Below are positions 56,527-64,000 of a stretch of 64,000 nucleotides of DNA, in pieces. The stretch covers positions 186,001 through 250,000 of the forward strand of contig NZ_KB894093.1 of NCBI RefSeq assembly GCF_000374305.1. The letters are read 5' to 3'. How positions within the stretch are numbered: the first letter of the stretch is position 1; every line of letters begins with the position of its first letter. This DNA comes from Actinomadura flavalba DSM 45200 (GTDB lineage Bacteria > Actinomycetota > Actinomycetes > Streptosporangiales > Streptosporangiaceae). Under the pieces are notes generated by a model. It searched no databases and was not told where the DNA came from. It saw nothing but the letters and a program-made list of their open reading frames with translations. Position numbers and translations under genes: made by a program.

Positions 56527-56603
56527 GACCCCCAGCACCCCCTTCAACGCACAAACCAACAACCCCACACCACACAAAGCCCCATGCCACACCCACCCAA
56601 AAC

Positions 56604-56960
56604 GTTGCCCCTCTCAGGGGCGATGGGGACGCCAGCGGCGCCGGGCGAACCCTGGCGAAGATGACGTTGCGACCCCTCTCAGGGGCGATGGGGACGCGAG
56701 CGGCGCGGGCTACAGACCGCCGGCGCCCTTGCGTTGCGACCCCTCGTAGGGGCGATGGGGACTTCGGCCTCCCGGCCGGGCGCCAGCACGTCGAGCGTGT
56801 TGCGACCCCTCGTAGGGGCGATGGGGACATGGCCATCGCGCCGGGAACCTACGCGTGCGTGATCAGTTGCGACCCCTCGTAGGGGCGATGGGGACCGACT
56901 CATCCGCCACATCGCCCGCGGCGTCCACCAGTTGCGACCCCTCGTAGGGGCGATGGGGAC
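56604..56960 (-). CRISPR. CRISPR array 1: 6 repeats, 5 spacers
   Basis: A 30-bp repeat, in plus reading GTTGCGACCCCTCGTAGGGG then CGATGGGGAC. Copies lie at 56604-56630 (27 bp, 3-bp deletion), 56666-56695, 56733-56762, 56799-56828, 56866-56895 and 56931-56960. Spacers are 35, 37, 36, 37 and 35 bp and all differ. The two leftmost copies have CTCTCAG in place of CTCGTAG. Degeneration on the left and the conserved leader on the right show transcription leftwards, giving crRNA repeats beginning GTCCCCATCG and ending TCGCAAC, with a CCCCT/AGGGG hairpin. Confidence 0.96.
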
Positions 56961-57065
56961 CCCACGGTAAAGTCGCAGCTCAACCACCCGCGAAACCGCA
57001 AGTTCTCGTGGCAGTTTTCAGCGACCCTCCGGTCGTGTCGCAAACCCCGGTGTGTCGCTGAAATC
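56961..57065 (-). promoter_or_regulatory. CRISPR leader of array 1
   Basis: About 105 bp right of array 1 begins CCCACGGTAAAGTCGCAGCTC and contains GGTCGTGTCG and TGTCGCTGAAA. Alignable sequence flanks arrays 2 and 3 at the same distance and orientation relative to the repeats. This identifies it as leader with the array promoter. From here to 57247 no gene is seen. Confidence 0.8.
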
Positions 57066-57247
57066 CGGAGCTCAAGTCCGTGCTCAGCGTACGCCGGTCA
57101 GGATGGCTTCGGGTCACCATGTCCGCAATGGGGCCTCGCCTGAAGCGCCACCCAGGCGCCGACGCGCACCCGACAGTCCGACGACCCGTCCGCCACAAGC
57201 ATCACCGACGAGCCAGCATCCACGCGACTGACTTGTAAGGTCGCGCC

Positions 57248-57913
57248 ATGCAGACTGGTCGCCCCCTCCGAGAGCCGAAAGCACCCGAGATCCCCACGTC
57301 CCTGACACCGGCGACCGCCGCCGACACCGAGCTGGTCCACGACGGGAAGTACCTCTCGCTCGCCTACGGCCCGGTGACGATCACCGCCGAAGACGTGGAG
57401 GACCCCGACTTCGAGCGCTGCCGGTTCGAACAGACCTACCTGCCCGCGATCGTCCTGCACCGTGCCGGGTTCGCCGACGTGGAATTCACCGGATGCGACA
57501 TGGCGAACGCCCGCCTGTTCAACTCACGGATGTTCAACGCTGCCGTCACCACCTGCCGGATGACCGGCCTCCAGCTCACCGAGGCCGGACTGCGCGACGT
57601 CACCTTCGAGGGCTGCCGCGCCGACCTGGCCAACTTCCGCTTCGCCCACCTGCGCGACGTGGTCTTCCGCGACTGCAACCTGTCCGAGGCCGGCTTCCAG
57701 AACGCCGAACTAACCCACGTCCGATTCGAGCGCTGCAAGCTCACAGCGACCCAATTCAGCAACGCCCGCATGAACAACGTGCACTTCTCCGCCTGCGACC
57801 TCAACGGCGTACGAGGCATCACCAGCTTCGCAGGCGCAACCGTCTCCAACAACGACGCCATGGGCCTACTGGACGCGATGGCATCAGCCCTGGGCATAAC
57901 AATCGAGAACTAA
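57248..57913 (+). CDS. Pentapeptide-repeat protein
   Basis: A 221-residue protein. From about residue 55 it is built of five-residue beta-helix repeats with Phe/Leu at the centre: FERCRFEQ, FADVEFTGCDMANARLF, LRDVTFEGCRADLANFRFAHL, VVFRDCNLSEAGFQNAEL, VRFERCKLTATQFSNARM, VHFSACDL. Such right-handed quadrilateral helices include DNA-mimicking gyrase protectors (Qnr, MfpA), though many have other roles. It is cytoplasmic, with no signal. It lies between the array 1 leader and a transposase remnant. Confidence 0.9.
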   Translation: MQTGRPLREPKAPEIPTSLTPATAADTELVHDGKYLSLAYGPVTITAEDVEDPDFERCRFEQTYLPAIVLHRAGFADVEFTGCDMANARLFNSRMFNAAVTTCRMTGLQLTEAGLRDVTFEGCRADLANFRFAHLRDVVFRDCNLSEAGFQNAELTHVRFERCKLTATQFSNARMNNVHFSACDLNGVRGITSFAGATVSNNDAMGLLDAMASALGITIEN

Positions 57914-57980
57914 CCCACCGTCTCCCGGTTCCACCACCGCGAAGCCCAGCGTCTTAGGGATGGGCCGCATGACGGCCTAC

Positions 57981-58157
57981 CGTAGGACCCCGGCAGCGCC
58001 GCTGCGGACGACTCCGACGACGACCAACCGCTCCTATAAACAGGTCAGGGCCTGTGTCGAGCACGCCTTCTTGCGCGACTGCCGCCTGAGAGGCGACGGC
58101 GTGCACCACGCGCTGCTCGGCATCGCGCGCCTGCACAACTCGGCCCTGGTGGGCTGA
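57981..58157 (+). pseudogene. Transposase C-terminal remnant (IS5/IS112-like)
   Basis: The frame reads RSYKQVRACVEHAF then LRDCRLRGDGVHHALLGIARLHNSALVG and stops. This is the well-known C-terminus of IS5-group actinomycete transposases, in which VEHAF is normally followed by about eight residues (such as A-R-M-K-x-x-K-I) before LRDCR; these are deleted here. Everything upstream is missing. The following 60 bp, with GGGCATTCTCTCGC, may be the element's terminus. Confidence 0.82.
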
Positions 58158-58297
58158 GAGGGCATTCTCTCGCTCCGACCACCATGTGCGGTTTTCGCTT
58201 GTCAGGCATGAGTCCCATCGGGGCGATGCCCCGAGCGTAAAGCGTTGCCGATGGACTACCAGGCGTTGGTGAGGAGCGGAGCGGTTGCCATGACGGG

Positions 58298-59113
58298 TCA
58301 GGGGGTGAGGGCGTACTCGATGAAGTGGCCGCAGACGGTGAAACCGAGGCGGCGGTAGACAGGTTCCCCGTCGGCGGATGCCTGTAGCACCACGGTCTCG
58401 TAGCCCGCGTCCCGGGCGGTGTGCAAAGCGGCCGCGGTGATGGTGCCGCCATAGCCGCGGCGGCGGTCGGTGGCGAGTGTGGCGATGTTGTAGATGCCGA
58501 CGACGCCCGCGTGCAGGAAGACCTCGGCCGAGCAGACGGGACGGCCATCGACGTAGCCGACCAGATAGCGAGCGGGACAGTCGGCGGTGAGAGCCGAATC
58601 GGCGGCGTCGGCGAAGAACTGGCGCACCGTGGCGGCGGGCGGGTTCCAGTTCGCGGCGAGGACCGTGGCGTAGTCGGCAAGCTGTTCCGGAGTGATGGCC
58701 GGACGGATCTCCAGGCCGTCGACGTGTGCGTCGGGGAGGGGGTCGCGCAGGTCCTTCCACATGCCCGCCTCCGTTTCCGACGCCTCCAGGCCGGCGGCCC
58801 GAAGGTGCTCGGCGAGATCGTCCGGCGTGGAGGCGGGGCCCACCCACCAGGAGAAGGGGCGGCCGGTGGCGGCCAGGGTTCGGGCCGTCTCCGCAGCGCC
58901 TGCCGGGGCTGTGCCCGGCGTGAAGCGGGCCGTCGCGACGATGTTGAAGGTGTCGTCGTCGAGACCACTGTCGGCTATGAGCAGGTCGCCGGTCTCGGTG
59001 ACGGACGCGCCCTTCAGGGTTCGATGCAGGTGGCAGGCGTGCTCGGCGAGATTCTGCTCCATCGCGAGCGGAAGTTCGGATTCGTTGACGGACAGGATGT
59101 GCACGGACCTCAT
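58298..59113 (-). CDS. GNAT-family N-acetyltransferase
   Basis: A 271-residue protein. The C-terminal half contains the GNAT acetyl-CoA loop as [26 protein letters not shown], with Q/R-x-x-G-x-G/A in R-R-G-Y-G-G, followed by [26 protein letters not shown]. The N-terminal half is a second, degenerate GNAT-like domain ([24 protein letters not shown]). The acceptor substrate is unknown. Confidence 0.9.
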
Positions 59114-59485
59114 GATGAATCATCCCAGCGTGCCGTCTGGGAGGCTCGCAGGTGCTTTTCCGGGCCTGCGAACGGGCTGACCAGGAGCTGTCCGCTGAAC
59201 CATGCCGACAGCACAGGCACGGTGTAACGGGTCGCGCGGCTAGCGCGCGAGCCTCGTGGCTCACGCCTCGGACGAGGCTCACCCAGGACGCCACAGTGCC
59301 CACACAACCACCCAGCCAGTTCCCCGCTGCCCGTCGGATCAGCTCTGACAGACCGGGCATGGTTTCGGGACGACCCCTAGGGTCGACGAGCCCAAACCAG
59401 CCACACTGCGAAGCCGGATGGCTATTCCTCGCGTGTGAAGCTCTGTCCTCAGCGCAACGGAAGCCGACGCAGAGGCGTTCGCGTC
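59114..59485. other. Non-coding stretch
   Basis: About 370 bp between the acetyltransferase start and the istB remnant. Open frames here are short and have no family resemblance. It probably holds the acetyltransferase promoter and decayed mobile-element DNA. Confidence 0.5.
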
Positions 59486-59766
59486 CTGACGAACGCGGCG
59501 CCGAACTGCTGCTCTTACGAATCCTCACCCAACGCGAGGAGAAAACGTGCATCGCCGTCGCTTCCGACGATTGGTTCGGCGGTCCGGCTAGGCATCGACC
59601 GAACGACAACTCTGCACCGTGACGGTCGACCGCAGCATCTTCACACTGCGTGATCATCGAGACCGGCACCGAGTCCTATCGGCTCGTCCACACCTACGCC
59701 CGCCGAGCCCAGAACCCTGCCGACCCACGGCGCACCGATATTCAAGAGCGGTCTCACGCCCGGTGA
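59486..59766 (+). pseudogene. istB (IS21 helper ATPase) C-terminal remnant
   Basis: Two fragments in different frames reproduce the end of IstB. The first is GAELLLLRILTQREEKTCIAVASDDWFGG at about 59497-59585, matching the family's L-L-x-x-I-x-x-R-E-E-x-x-S-I-x-x-A-S-N. The second is CVIIETGTESYRLVHTYARRA from about 59648 to the TGA at 59764-59766, matching I-I-E-T-G-T-x-S-Y-R-L. The joining part is deleted or frameshifted and the P-loop half is absent, so no function remains. Confidence 0.75.
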
Positions 59767-59781
59767 TGCGACACTCCCCGG

Positions 59782-60321
59782 ATGACCGCCGATCCCGACG
59801 AATGGGACTACCTGCGAGGCCTTGAGCTACTCGCACGCGAACTCGTCGCTCGAGCAGACGATGAAGGCTGGCTCAGCTACGAGCCCGGACCCGACGACGC
59901 CACACCGCTCCAACGCACCATTAGCAAGATCGCCAAGTCGGCGCGGCACTACCACTTCGAAGGCGACGGCTGCCTCGACGAAGACCGACCATTCATCAGC
60001 CTCGGAGGTGCCGCGCTGATCAGACCTGAATCATTGCTCGGCCCCATCTACGAGCAACTCTGCCAGCTCTTGGGAGTTGCACCACGTTCCGAGGGATGGG
60101 CACTTTGGTACTCGTGGGACAACCGACAACGAGCCCACACCCTCGTTACCAATCGAATCGCCACCACCGAAGGACTCTTGGAGAACTGGTCCCGCGGCAT
60201 CAGCACCAACCCGACAGCACCCGACCCCGCACACATCACCGCAGTGGTCCGTGGCTGGAGGGGACCCGTCATCCTCTCACCCGACCACGCCCGCGTTCTC
60301 GACCTCCCGCCCCGCACCTGA
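59782..60321 (+). CDS. Hypothetical protein
   Basis: A 179-residue acidic protein without signal peptide or membrane helix. I do not recognise the family. It begins MTADPDEWDYLRGLELLARELV; other marked segments are HYHFEGDGCLDEDRPFISLGG, ALWYSWDN, and VVRGWRGPVILSPDHARVL. Codon use is less G/C-biased than in core genes of the window, consistent with acquired DNA. It begins 16 bp after the istB remnant. Confidence 0.65.
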   Translation: MTADPDEWDYLRGLELLARELVARADDEGWLSYEPGPDDATPLQRTISKIAKSARHYHFEGDGCLDEDRPFISLGGAALIRPESLLGPIYEQLCQLLGVAPRSEGWALWYSWDNRQRAHTLVTNRIATTEGLLENWSRGISTNPTAPDPAHITAVVRGWRGPVILSPDHARVLDLPPRT

Positions 60322-60680
60322 TCCGCCTGACCGAGACCCGACAGGCGAGAGGCAAGCTCAATTTGGGATACCATCCCGCCAAGATCACTAATCGAAGTGA
60401 ATACCCGCGCTAATCCAATGCGGCCATGCATTCTCCTGGTCAACCTGCCCGGGGCCGCCAGAAGTTGCCATCATGCCCGGCACCATGTTCACCAATAAGA
60501 CTCGCGATGGCCACAGGCCCTTTAAGGCGATGATGCGCAACTCCAGATTGCCCGCGTTGCGCCGCCTTCCGCTGTGCGGTTCTCCTCTAGCAATCAGGAC
60601 GGGACCATCGCTGCCGCGACGCTCCATCCCCCGCAGGGTGATCGGGACAGCGTAGGACGCCTCACTGCCGCCTCTGTGCC
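60322..60680. other. Non-coding stretch left of array 2
   Basis: About 360 bp of comparatively low GC between the unknown gene and the leader-distal end of array 2. I find no credible gene, repeat or hairpin in it; it could contain decayed repeats of the array. Confidence 0.5.
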
Positions 60681-60825
60681 GTGACGCGACCCTCCCAGGG
60701 CGATGGGGACCCGGAGATCGTACTCGTAGTCGGTGCGAATCGCCCGGCTGCGACCCCTCCCAGGGCAATGGGGGGGCAGCGCTGTTCCGGTTCGCGTTAC
60801 GACCCCTCGTAGGGGCGATGGGGAC
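60681..60825 (-). CRISPR. CRISPR array 2: 3 degenerate repeats
   Basis: Copies of the same 30-bp repeat family lie at 60681-60710, 60747-60776 and 60796-60825. Only the last, leader-proximal copy is near-consensus (GTTACGACCCCTCGTAGGGG). The other two have a TCCCAGGG variant of the stem, and the middle one ends GGGGGG instead of GGGGAC. The left spacer is 36 bp but the right one is only 19 bp, half the normal length. The leader lies to the right. It is a decaying or partly deleted array. Confidence 0.85.
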
Positions 60826-60906
60826 TCCACGGTAAAGGCGCAGCTCAGCCCAGGATTAGAGTCGTGGATTCTCGGTGTGTTCTTCAGCGAGCCGCCGGTT
60901 GTGAGG
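60826..60906 (-). promoter_or_regulatory. CRISPR leader of array 2
   Basis: The 80 bp begin TCCACGGTAAAGGCGCAGCTC and continue to CTTCAGCGAGCCGCCGGTTG, aligning with the array 1 leader over its whole length. It fills exactly the space between array 2 and the cas6 stop. Confidence 0.78.
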
Positions 60907-61650
60907 TCAGGCACCGATCCAGCCCATTCCCGTGCTGTTCGCCTGGCCGAGCCCCCAGGAATGGAGCGCCGACAACGTCTCCGGCGGCCCCGACACCGTG
61001 ATCTCGACGCACGCGCCCGGCTTCCTGCCCCCGGCGCCGCGACTGCTCCCCACCGCGAACGACCGCTTCGCCCCGACCCATCCGACGCCCTCGACGCTGA
61101 CGTCCGGATCGAGATTCACGGTCTCGGCCTTGCGGCGCAGATTGTTCTGCACGAACACTTCCCATTCGGGATCGCTTGGAAGGCACCATGCCTGCCGCGT
61201 CGTGCGCGTTCCGTGCTCGTCCCGGCCCGAACCCTTCATCACCACCGGCGTCTCGGTGCGGAACGTCGCCCGCCCGGACGGAAACGCCGGCGCGTCGACG
61301 GGCTGAATGTCGTCCACGATGAACGCCGTCGCGCCCCACGCGATCACCGGCATCGACGCGAGGGCAGCCGCCCACGCCTCAACGACGGCGAGCAACGGAC
61401 TGCCCAGTTCGAGCACCCCCGGCCCCTCCGAGGGATAAGCGCCCCGGCGCTTCCGCGCGGCCGGGAACACCGGGGCGCCGTACCCGAACGGCACCATCCC
61501 GTGCGGACCCCAGCCCTTCTCGTGAATCACACTTCCCAGCTCAGGCGCACCCCGCTCCAGCAGCGCGTAACAGAGGGGACGACCGGGCGCCAGGACGTCG
61601 TCCCAGGGCAGCTCACGCGCACTCGTGTGGAAAGACACTCGCAATCGCAT
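60907..61650 (-). CDS. cas6: CRISPR RNA endonuclease Cas6
   Basis: A protein of about 247 residues with two ferredoxin-like halves. It starts MRLRVSFHTSARELPWDDVL, has the family's LIH/GYGAP-like region (GSVIHEKGWGPHGMVPFGYGAP), and ends with the glycine-rich G-loop SWGLGQANSTGMGWIG that defines Cas6. His residues in the HEKGWGPH segment are candidates for catalysis. Cas6 cuts the repeat hairpin of pre-crRNA to leave an 8-nt 5' handle. The ATG at 61650 has a better-spaced GAGAGG than that at 61659. No other cas gene is in the window; arrays 2 and 3 flank this gene on both sides. Confidence 0.85.
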   Translation of the reverse strand: MRLRVSFHTSARELPWDDVLAPGRPLCYALLERGAPELGSVIHEKGWGPHGMVPFGYGAPVFPAARKRRGAYPSEGPGVLELGSPLLAVVEAWAAALASMPVIAWGATAFIVDDIQPVDAPAFPSGRATFRTETPVVMKGSGRDEHGTRTTRQAWCLPSDPEWEVFVQNNLRRKAETVNLDPDVSVEGVGWVGAKRSFAVGSSRGAGGRKPGACVEITVSGPPETLSALHSWGLGQANSTGMGWIGA

Positions 61651-61931
61651 CTGACTCATTCCTCTCTATGTCCGGACGTGCGACGACGCTTCGATCAGTT
61701 CTCTCGTTACGCGCCGCGTGGACGCGGCCACCACTCACGTCCACGCACGGGCCGAAGCTAGCGCCCAGGGGCGACTTGTCGGTCTACTTCAACGAAAAAC
61801 TGGATACTACGGACCGAGATGTCGGGCGATATACCGTTCCGAGCCCAACGCACCACGCCCCCTCCCAGCGGCATTCACCCGCGTACAGCGCGACCGGCCT
61901 CCGCGCTCGCCATGTACAGATGGACGAACGG

Positions 61932-62034
61932 TTTCAGCGACACGCCGGGGTCCACGACACGACCAGAGGCCCGCCGAAATCCGGCCAAGATCCGCCCACC
62001 TCACTCCACGCGCGAGCTGGTGCTTTACCCTGGG
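61932..62034 (+). promoter_or_regulatory. CRISPR leader of array 3
   Basis: The 103 bp from TTTCAGCGACACGCCGGGG to GAGCTGGTGCTTTACCCTGG are the reverse complement counterpart of the array 1 leader, sharing CGACACGACC, GAGCTG and CTTTACC at matching positions. Array 3 is thus inverted relative to arrays 1 and 2. The 280 bp left of it up to cas6 hold the cas6 promoter; no gene is seen there. Confidence 0.75.
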
Positions 62035-62194
62035 GTCCCCATCACCCCTTCGAGGGGTCGCAGCACGCTGTGGTGAGCGCCGTGCGGATGTATCCCCGCG
62101 TGCCCATCACCCCCTTCGAAGGCCGCAACGCGCGCAGTGCCCGGTTGATGCGGATGTAGCCCGCGTCCCCATCACCCCTTCGAGGGGCCGCAAA
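62035..62194 (+). CRISPR. CRISPR array 3: 3 repeats, 2 spacers
   Basis: Repeats at 62035-62064, 62100-62129 and 62165-62194 read GTCCCCATCACCCCTTCGAG then GGGTCGCAGC, with variants. Both spacers are 35 bp and differ. The leader lies on the left, so transcription is rightwards. The repeat is the same family as in arrays 1 and 2 but with A for G at position 10 and a TCG instead of ACG hairpin loop. The middle copy begins GTGCCCATC with one extra C later. Confidence 0.9.
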
Positions 62195-63917: not shown

Positions 63918-64000
63918 TTACTCGGCCGCCAGCCGGTCGAGCCGGACGCGCAGTTCCTCGAAGCGGACGAGAAGCCCCCGGTCGCCGGGTCCGGCGGCGC
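63918..64000 (-). CDS. C-terminus of a gene running off the window
   Basis: The minus-strand frame ending at the TAA 63918-63920 reads GDRGLLVRFEELRVRLDRLAAE, an amphipathic helix typical of protein C-termini. The gene begins beyond the right edge and is not identifiable. Confidence 0.5.
   Translation of the reverse strand, partial: AAGPGDRGLLVRFEELRVRLDRLAAE

Follow-up and report, generated by a model that had tools for sequence, protein, structure and literature searches.

The cas6 gene and the three arrays of the window

We analyzed a stretch of 64,000 nucleotides of the Actinomadura flavalba DSM 45200 genome (bases 186001-250000 of contig 1, C1; hereafter the window), which holds a cas6 gene and three small arrays of clustered regularly interspaced short palindromic repeats (CRISPR). 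The genome is 6.17 Mb long, comprised of 22 contigs and 99.27% complete. An earlier note, made from the letters of the window, had described a lone cas6 with arrays of six, three and three repeats of one family. The cas6 gene (60907..61659, minus strand, with the ATG at 61650 as another possible start) encodes a protein of 250 amino acids (aa) and has an open reading frame. Its product matches the PADLOC Cas6b model PDLC01786 (E 4.9e-93, residues 4-248) and the Pfam domain Cas6_C (PF01881; 40.7 bits, cut-off 23), while its score against NCBIfam cas_cas6 (TIGR01877), 42.9 bits, is below the cut-off of 58.65. With profile matches across most of its length, the protein belongs to the Cas6 endoribonuclease family, and the profile search thus bears out what had been proposed for the product of 60907-61650.

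Array 1 (56601..56960, minus) consists of six 30-nt repeats and five spacers of 35-37 nt; five repeats are intact or near-intact, and the last one is degenerate with 8 mismatches. Its leader (56961..57066, minus) carries the inverted repeat TTTCAGCGACAC...GTCGCTGAAA. Array 2 (60683..60825, minus) has three repeats, the first with 1 mismatch and the other two eroded, the final one being 28 nt as read from the sequence; one of its spacers is 36 nt, and the other has been cut down to 19 nt. The alignment of leaders shows that the leader of array 2 (60826..60903, minus) is truncated and lacks its 5' part. By the same alignment, array 3 (62035..62194, plus), with three degenerate repeats and two 35-nt spacers, has a whole leader (61931..62034, plus). 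Direct repeats of near-constant length, alternating with unique spacers that are similar in length, are therefore seen in array 1, and only in eroded form in arrays 2 and 3, where most repeats have several mismatches. The repeat reads GTCCCCATCGCCCCTACGAGGGGTCGCAAC in the orientation of the CRISPR RNA (crRNA). Allowing up to three mismatches, it has 52 matches in the genome compared to 0 for the reversed control, so the arrays are not due to chance, and inspection of the repeats confirmed the numbers of repeats and the single family. The orientation of arrays 2 and 3, which flank cas6 and both point outward from it, is likewise as had been described.

The type III-Dv operon beyond the window edge

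A search for repeat-associated mysterious proteins (RAMP) yielded five matches at C1:253825-262437, 4-12 kb to the right of the window. They mark an operon at C1:252118-262824 (66118-76824 on the window scale), which is on the minus strand, the same as cas6, and starts about 2.1 kb past the window edge. From C1:262824, the genes encode a Cas7-insertion paralogue, Cas10, Cas7-Cas5-Cas11, Cas7-2x, Csx19, and a second Cas7-insertion paralogue, all in open reading frames. The products match chains A, C, D, and E of the Synechocystis type III-Dv structure 8s9t, with E-values of 4.6e-99 for Cas7-Cas5-Cas11, 2.1e-65 for Cas10, 1.8e-66 for Cas7-2x, and 3.2e-102 and 5.6e-115 for the two Cas7-insertion paralogues; Csx19 was assigned by profile rather than by PDB comparison, scoring above the cut-off of NCBIfam TIGR03984. 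All five subunit types are present in a single operon of 10.7 kb on one strand, as is characteristic of type III-Dv (III-D2). The Cas7-insertion paralogues at the first and last positions are at L019:10494-12824 and L019:2118-4712, both on the minus strand.

Past the operon, the genes are arranged in the order CARF-HEPN gene, P355, array 3, cas6, array 2. What the window holds is the end of a type III-Dv locus, and cas6 appeared to be lone because the window edge hides the adjoining operon. A truly lone Cas6 is ruled out by this operon, so that the description is correct for the window and wrong for the genome. The earlier note itself had named a full cas operon close beyond the window as speaking against its reading, and such an operon is what we found. 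The claim that the window contains no effector was nearly true, except for the last 83 bases of the CARF-HEPN gene; and the suggestion that effectors elsewhere use the arrays proved essentially right, with the effectors a mere 2.1 kb away on the strand of cas6.

Cas10 carries a GGDD motif at residue 317 of its longest frame. No N-terminal HD domain is evident in it, as the sole HD pair is at residue 483, far from the N terminus; HD has been reported for just 3% of III-D systems (PMC11229360). The order of the operon from cas10 on is the same as in the III-Dv locus of Synechocystis PCC6803 (PMC11026444; 8s9t), which also has cas6 near the operon and the GGDD motif in Cas10. By contrast, the adaptation genes that adjoin the Synechocystis operon have not been found in the A. 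flavalba genome, and in place of one cas7-insertion gene (PMC11026444) A. flavalba has a second paralogue at the 5' end, in addition to a Csm6-2-like effector and P355.

This effector is the product of the CARF-HEPN gene, whose 3' end is in the window (63918..64000, minus) and whose longest frame, 63918-66194, crosses the edge. The protein of 758 aa matches the PADLOC model PDLC01976 with 1076 bits and has an R-X6-H motif close to its C-terminal end, which is likewise seen in the related locus L036; against PDB chains, there was no sequence match at E 0.01. Judged by the PADLOC model, length, context, and this one motif, it is Csm6-2-like. Csm6-2 (PMC11229360, PMC13187428), a CARF-HEPN-CARF-HEPN fusion, is likewise a single polypeptide, of similar length (ca. 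795 aa), and an effector of III-D loci, the locus considered here being a III-D locus of an actinomycete. The activator of Csm6-2 was given as cyclic hexaadenylate (cA6) in 2024 (PMC11229360) and as preferentially cyclic pentaadenylate (cA5) in 2026 (PMC13187428).

Type I-B relatives, the scar, and the arrays of the genome

Scanning of named genomes with Cas6 produced ten loci, nine from Actinomadura and one from Streptomyces. In seven of them (L033, L034, L035, L036, L038, L040, and L042), cas6 is directly followed by a whole type I-B operon in the order cas8b, cas7b, cas5b, cas3b, cas4b, cas1b, cas2b, identified by profiles on L033 and by tblastn on the others. Cas6 of these loci, six from Actinomadura (L033-L036, L038, L040) and one from Streptomyces specialis (L042), is 70-77% identical to that of A. 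flavalba, and the three aligned ones (L033, L034, L036) have the same CRISPR leader. Compared to them, the A. flavalba window lacks the entire set cas8b-cas7-cas5-cas3-cas4-cas1-cas2. The operon is also absent from A. chibensis (L037) and A. roseirufa (L039), where there is just a match of 41 or 48 residues to the first part of the cas8b frame, overlapping the end of cas6. In the remaining locus, L041 of A. soli, the contig ends within cas6.

Two of these loci have further features of their own. In A. soli, cas2 fragments (residues 29-83 and 42-83) are found beside CRISPR repeats at L041:3195-3347 and L041:8527-8652, as if arrays had been copied together with the cas2 end. In A. chibensis, a CorA-like gene (L037:8666-9814; PDLC01176, E 1.9e-131) is just upstream of cas6, and a gene for a Csa3-like regulator (L037:10837-11190) is just downstream of it, where the I-B operon is missing.

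The site where the operon would be expected bears a scar (60903..60909, minus), consisting of the cas6 stop codon (60907-60909), three bases, and the middle of the array 2 leader. Directly after the stop come 'cct' and CACAACCGGCGGCTCGCTGAAG, and the latter aligns to the middle part of the leaders of the other arrays. As the C-terminal end of Cas6, NSTGMGWIGA, is identical in L033, L034, L036, L038, and L040, the deletion begins at or just after the stop and finishes inside the array 2 leader. We take this scar as direct evidence for the deletion of the I-B operon.

The arrangement of arrays around cas6 is also found in relatives, in which repeats were identified with up to 7 mismatches to the A. 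flavalba repeat. In L033, L035, and L036, the array upstream of cas6 faces outward, and cas2 is followed by repeats on the opposite strand, of which L035 has just one. L034 has repeats only after cas2, L038 and L040 have one weak repeat each, and in L042 the repeats before cas6 point toward it. An outward-facing frame is thus present in three of the seven operon-bearing loci, and, with the operon gone here, the order array-cas6-array is that of a I-B frame without its contents. This accounts for the layout that had been called unusual.

The seven I-B proteins of A. livida had no match at E 1e-3 in the window or in seven stretches of the same genome, this being the range in which cas8b and cas5b were covered; the genome-wide search was for DevR/Cas7b and Cas3. 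Cas3 (TIGR01587) had eight matches in the genome, none above the cut-off (the best at 31.9 of 102.45 bits), which we read as other helicases. Cas7b (DevR) had 0 matches in the whole genome, with the control positive in just 2 of 14 control genomes. On these results, we rejected the possibility that the genome encodes a type I system at another site.

The genome contains nine arrays of this repeat family. The six outside the window, at C1:521k, C1:1734k, C3:18k, C3:300k, C3:337k, and C3:342k, have mostly intact repeats and full leaders. The leader, of ca. 105 nt with the inverted repeat, is whole in eight of the nine arrays; array 2, which retains a part, has lost one arm of the inverted repeat. 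In these eight leaders, the inverted repeat (TTTCAGCGACAC..GTCGCTGAAA in array 1, variants elsewhere) is ca. 55-105 nt before the first repeat, and is a possible candidate for a protein-binding site. Several leaders of the same type occur in other Actinomadura genomes, with or without Cas1. We considered and rejected the idea that the arrays had spread as a mobile unit, as no element beyond the leader is common to all flanks. The arrays C1:521k (L020) and C3:300k (L023) share 378 bp upstream of the leader with 81% identity, which suggests that this array was spread by segment duplication.

Searches of the whole genome for Cas1 and Cas2 returned 0 matches each, with controls positive in 9 and 10 of 14 genomes, respectively. 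The absence of adaptation genes, noted earlier for the window, thus holds for the entire genome, which does not encode a complete adaptive system, and without Cas1-Cas2 the nine arrays should be frozen. There are 47 spacers, nine in the window and 38 unique ones in the other six arrays. Seven of the nine window spacers were searched singly for phage protospacers, three at E <=1 and four at E <=0.1. None had a convincing phage target: five had no match, and two had weak ones (E 0.1-0.4). Exact 24-nt cores of four spacers had 0 matches in viral contigs.

Probable supply of crRNAs to the III-Dv complex

We surveyed 65 genomes of the genus, with a Cas6 threshold of E 1e-10. Cas6 is present in 18 of them and Cas10 of this kind in 14, 13 of which also have this Cas6. 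We counted as full-length Cas1 only long PF01867 matches with E below 1e-40. Partial matches, which span ca. 100 of the 283 positions with E between 1e-4 and 1e-10 and in many genomes score above the Pfam cut-off, were left out; 20 genomes then have Cas1, compared to 37 at the Pfam cut-off. Full-length Cas1 is found in 15 of the 18 Cas6 genomes. The three without it, A. flavalba (G000), G006, and G037, all carry Cas10, and the five Cas6 genomes without this Cas10 all have Cas1. Hence, Cas6 is always accompanied by full-length Cas1, Cas10, or both (18/18), and in none of the genomes (0/18) are the two missing together.

The best explanation, to which we assign a probability of about 0.8, is that the Cas6b and arrays left over from the I-B system supply crRNAs to the neighboring III-Dv complex after the deletion of the I-B operon, whose interference and adaptation genes, cas8b to cas2, were lost from the interval that separates the cas6 stop from the leader of the next array downstream; Cas6b would have outlived the operon because this complex needs it. 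What we observed directly, and what this explanation builds on, is the gene content, the layout, the scar, the lack of Cas1, Cas2, and Cas7b matches, and the co-occurrence. For crRNA processing, complex assembly, and signaling, the protein families point to the following course. The leaders would drive transcription of the arrays, and Cas6b would cut the repeat hairpin, leaving the 8-nt handle GUCGCAAC. The complex of Cas10, Cas7-Cas5-Cas11, Cas7-2x, Csx19, and Cas7-insertion proteins would take up the crRNA and cleave matching RNA, while Cas10, with its GGDD motif and no N-terminal HD seen, would synthesize cyclic oligoadenylate, which in turn would activate the Csm6-2-like ribonuclease.

Several observations weigh against this explanation. 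The processing of crRNAs and their use by III-Dv are predictions made from sequence, and arrays 2 and 3, with their eroded repeats, may be dead even if the others work. The absence of Cas7b is qualified by the few positive controls of that search. Among the 18 genomes counted, G061 has just a 33% homologue of this Cas6; outside the 18, G023 carries the Cas10 without this Cas6. At the looser Pfam cut-off, G006 and G037 count as Cas1-bearing, and A. flavalba is the only one of the 18 without Cas1; moreover, the presence of Cas10 in all three I-B-less genomes is not significant alone, since this Cas10 occurs in 13 of the 18. On the Cas6 tree, the absence of I-B requires three changes, but the tree is weakly resolved (five of 17 inner branches starred, eight open), and the count labels the second, distant Cas6 of G037 as I-B-bearing, though that genome has no full-length Cas1. 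Change counts cannot tell gain in the relatives from loss here, so that the main argument for loss is the truncated leader. Finally, the end branches of the three I-B-less Cas6 (0.12, 0.12, and 0.18) are longer than the 0.05-0.11 of most close I-B-bearing ones, which could reflect weakened constraint; they may also reflect release from the Cascade partner. Of 19 rows, the 14 closest were compared with the Streptomyces protein, and within these the same three proteins have the lowest identity to it, 69.8-70.4%; the five that were dropped (G033, G057, G003, G061, and the second Cas6 of G037) have even lower values.

Some of these observations would also fit decay of the whole locus, with cas6 and the arrays unused since the I-B loss, and III-Dv either using other guides or idle. 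The degenerate repeats of arrays 2 and 3 with the truncated spacer, the absence of adaptation genes in the genome, the end branch of 0.18 for the window Cas6, exceeding those of close I-B-bearing ones, and the lack of a convincing protospacer for the seven of 47 spacers searched are all consistent with it. However, the frames of cas6 and the III-Dv genes are open, Cas10 retains GGDD, six other arrays have mostly intact repeats and full leaders, and 13 of the 14 genomes with this Cas10 carry this Cas6. In addition, cas6 differs from its two nearest relatives mainly at third codon positions (0.49-0.50, compared to 0.09-0.10 at second positions), a pattern that also covers the time preceding the operon loss. 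We therefore consider decay unlikely.

That the I-B operon was never present here, the cas6-array frame being older and the relatives having gained cas8b-cas2, agrees with the change counts insofar as these do not separate gain from loss, yet in S. specialis, too, cas6 is immediately followed by the operon, and the array 2 leader is cut mid-way at the end of cas6, which a deletion explains and a gain elsewhere does not; this makes the scenario very improbable. Even less credible is a non-defense use of Cas6 and the arrays, e.g., regulation by crRNA-like RNAs independent of III-Dv. It was raised in the earlier note and has nothing specific in its favor, while a complete Class 1 effector operon adjoins cas6 and all 18 Cas6 genomes have full-length Cas1, Cas10, or both. 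The idea of a relic kept for another use is thus valid only for the type I-B half of the locus, which is gone.

The proposed supply of crRNAs by a leftover Cas6b is in line with what has been published on type III systems, most of which apparently rely on Cas6 from other loci according to the 2025 classification (PMC12669027). As in those systems (PMC12669027), the effector module here has no adaptation genes of its own and Cas6 comes from the locus of another system; unlike in them, the donor system has disappeared, leaving just its Cas6 and its arrays. In the available part of a 2025 review of actinomycete CRISPR (PMC12231136), there is no mention of 'Actinomadura', and among the matches listed in open-licence literature on Actinomadura CRISPR, Cas6 sharing, adaptation loss, Csm6-2, and actinobacterial systems, no title concerns this locus, and the papers listed on Actinomadura with CRISPR subtypes do not contain the genus name; given the restriction to open-licence papers, this silence is weak evidence of absence.

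Among other genes of the window, P355 (62682..63749, minus) adjoins the Csm6-2-like gene. It is present in all 11 of the 65 genomes that have the CARF-HEPN gene, and in 10 of the 11 both are on one contig, 156-755 bp apart in nine and 3.3 kb apart in G041. P355 is also found in two genomes without the CARF-HEPN gene, in one of them as a fragment. Stops are listed in four of the 13 P355 matches; on realignment, L073, L078, and L079 have none before the C-terminal end, and L082 is a fragment. P355 has no useful match in Pfam, NCBIfam, PADLOC, or PHROGs, and only matches with E 1.6 and 5.6 in PDB; an AlphaFold model from two sequences (mean pLDDT 56.8, pTM 0.29) was too poor to use. Tentatively, P355 might be a functional component, so far undescribed, of the branch of actinomycete III-Dv systems that signals through cyclic oligoadenylate, e.g., by regulating the Csm6-2-like ribonuclease or acting as its partner. 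A gene for a pentapeptide-repeat protein lies between arrays 1 and 2 (57248-57913, plus; Pentapeptide_4, E 2e-47), for which we saw no CRISPR link, and at ca. 58020-58160 (plus) there is a short frame remnant which resembles the end of an IS5-type transposase.

The apparent anomaly of the locus is thus settled by the window edge and the deletion of the operon. The genus offers a natural experiment, in which, by our reading, up to three losses of the I-B operon occurred and Cas6 was kept where III-Dv is present, so that the reliance of type III systems on a type I Cas6 can be tested in genomes that have lost the type I system. P355, next to the gene for the Csm6-2-like nuclease, provides a concrete target and the most open lead. 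This type III system has many arrays but no known way of acquiring spacers, and its memory is therefore expected to be frozen; if P355 has the role suggested above, A. flavalba would have a type III system that runs on a fixed memory, with Cas6 from a dead I-B system and a control protein of its own.

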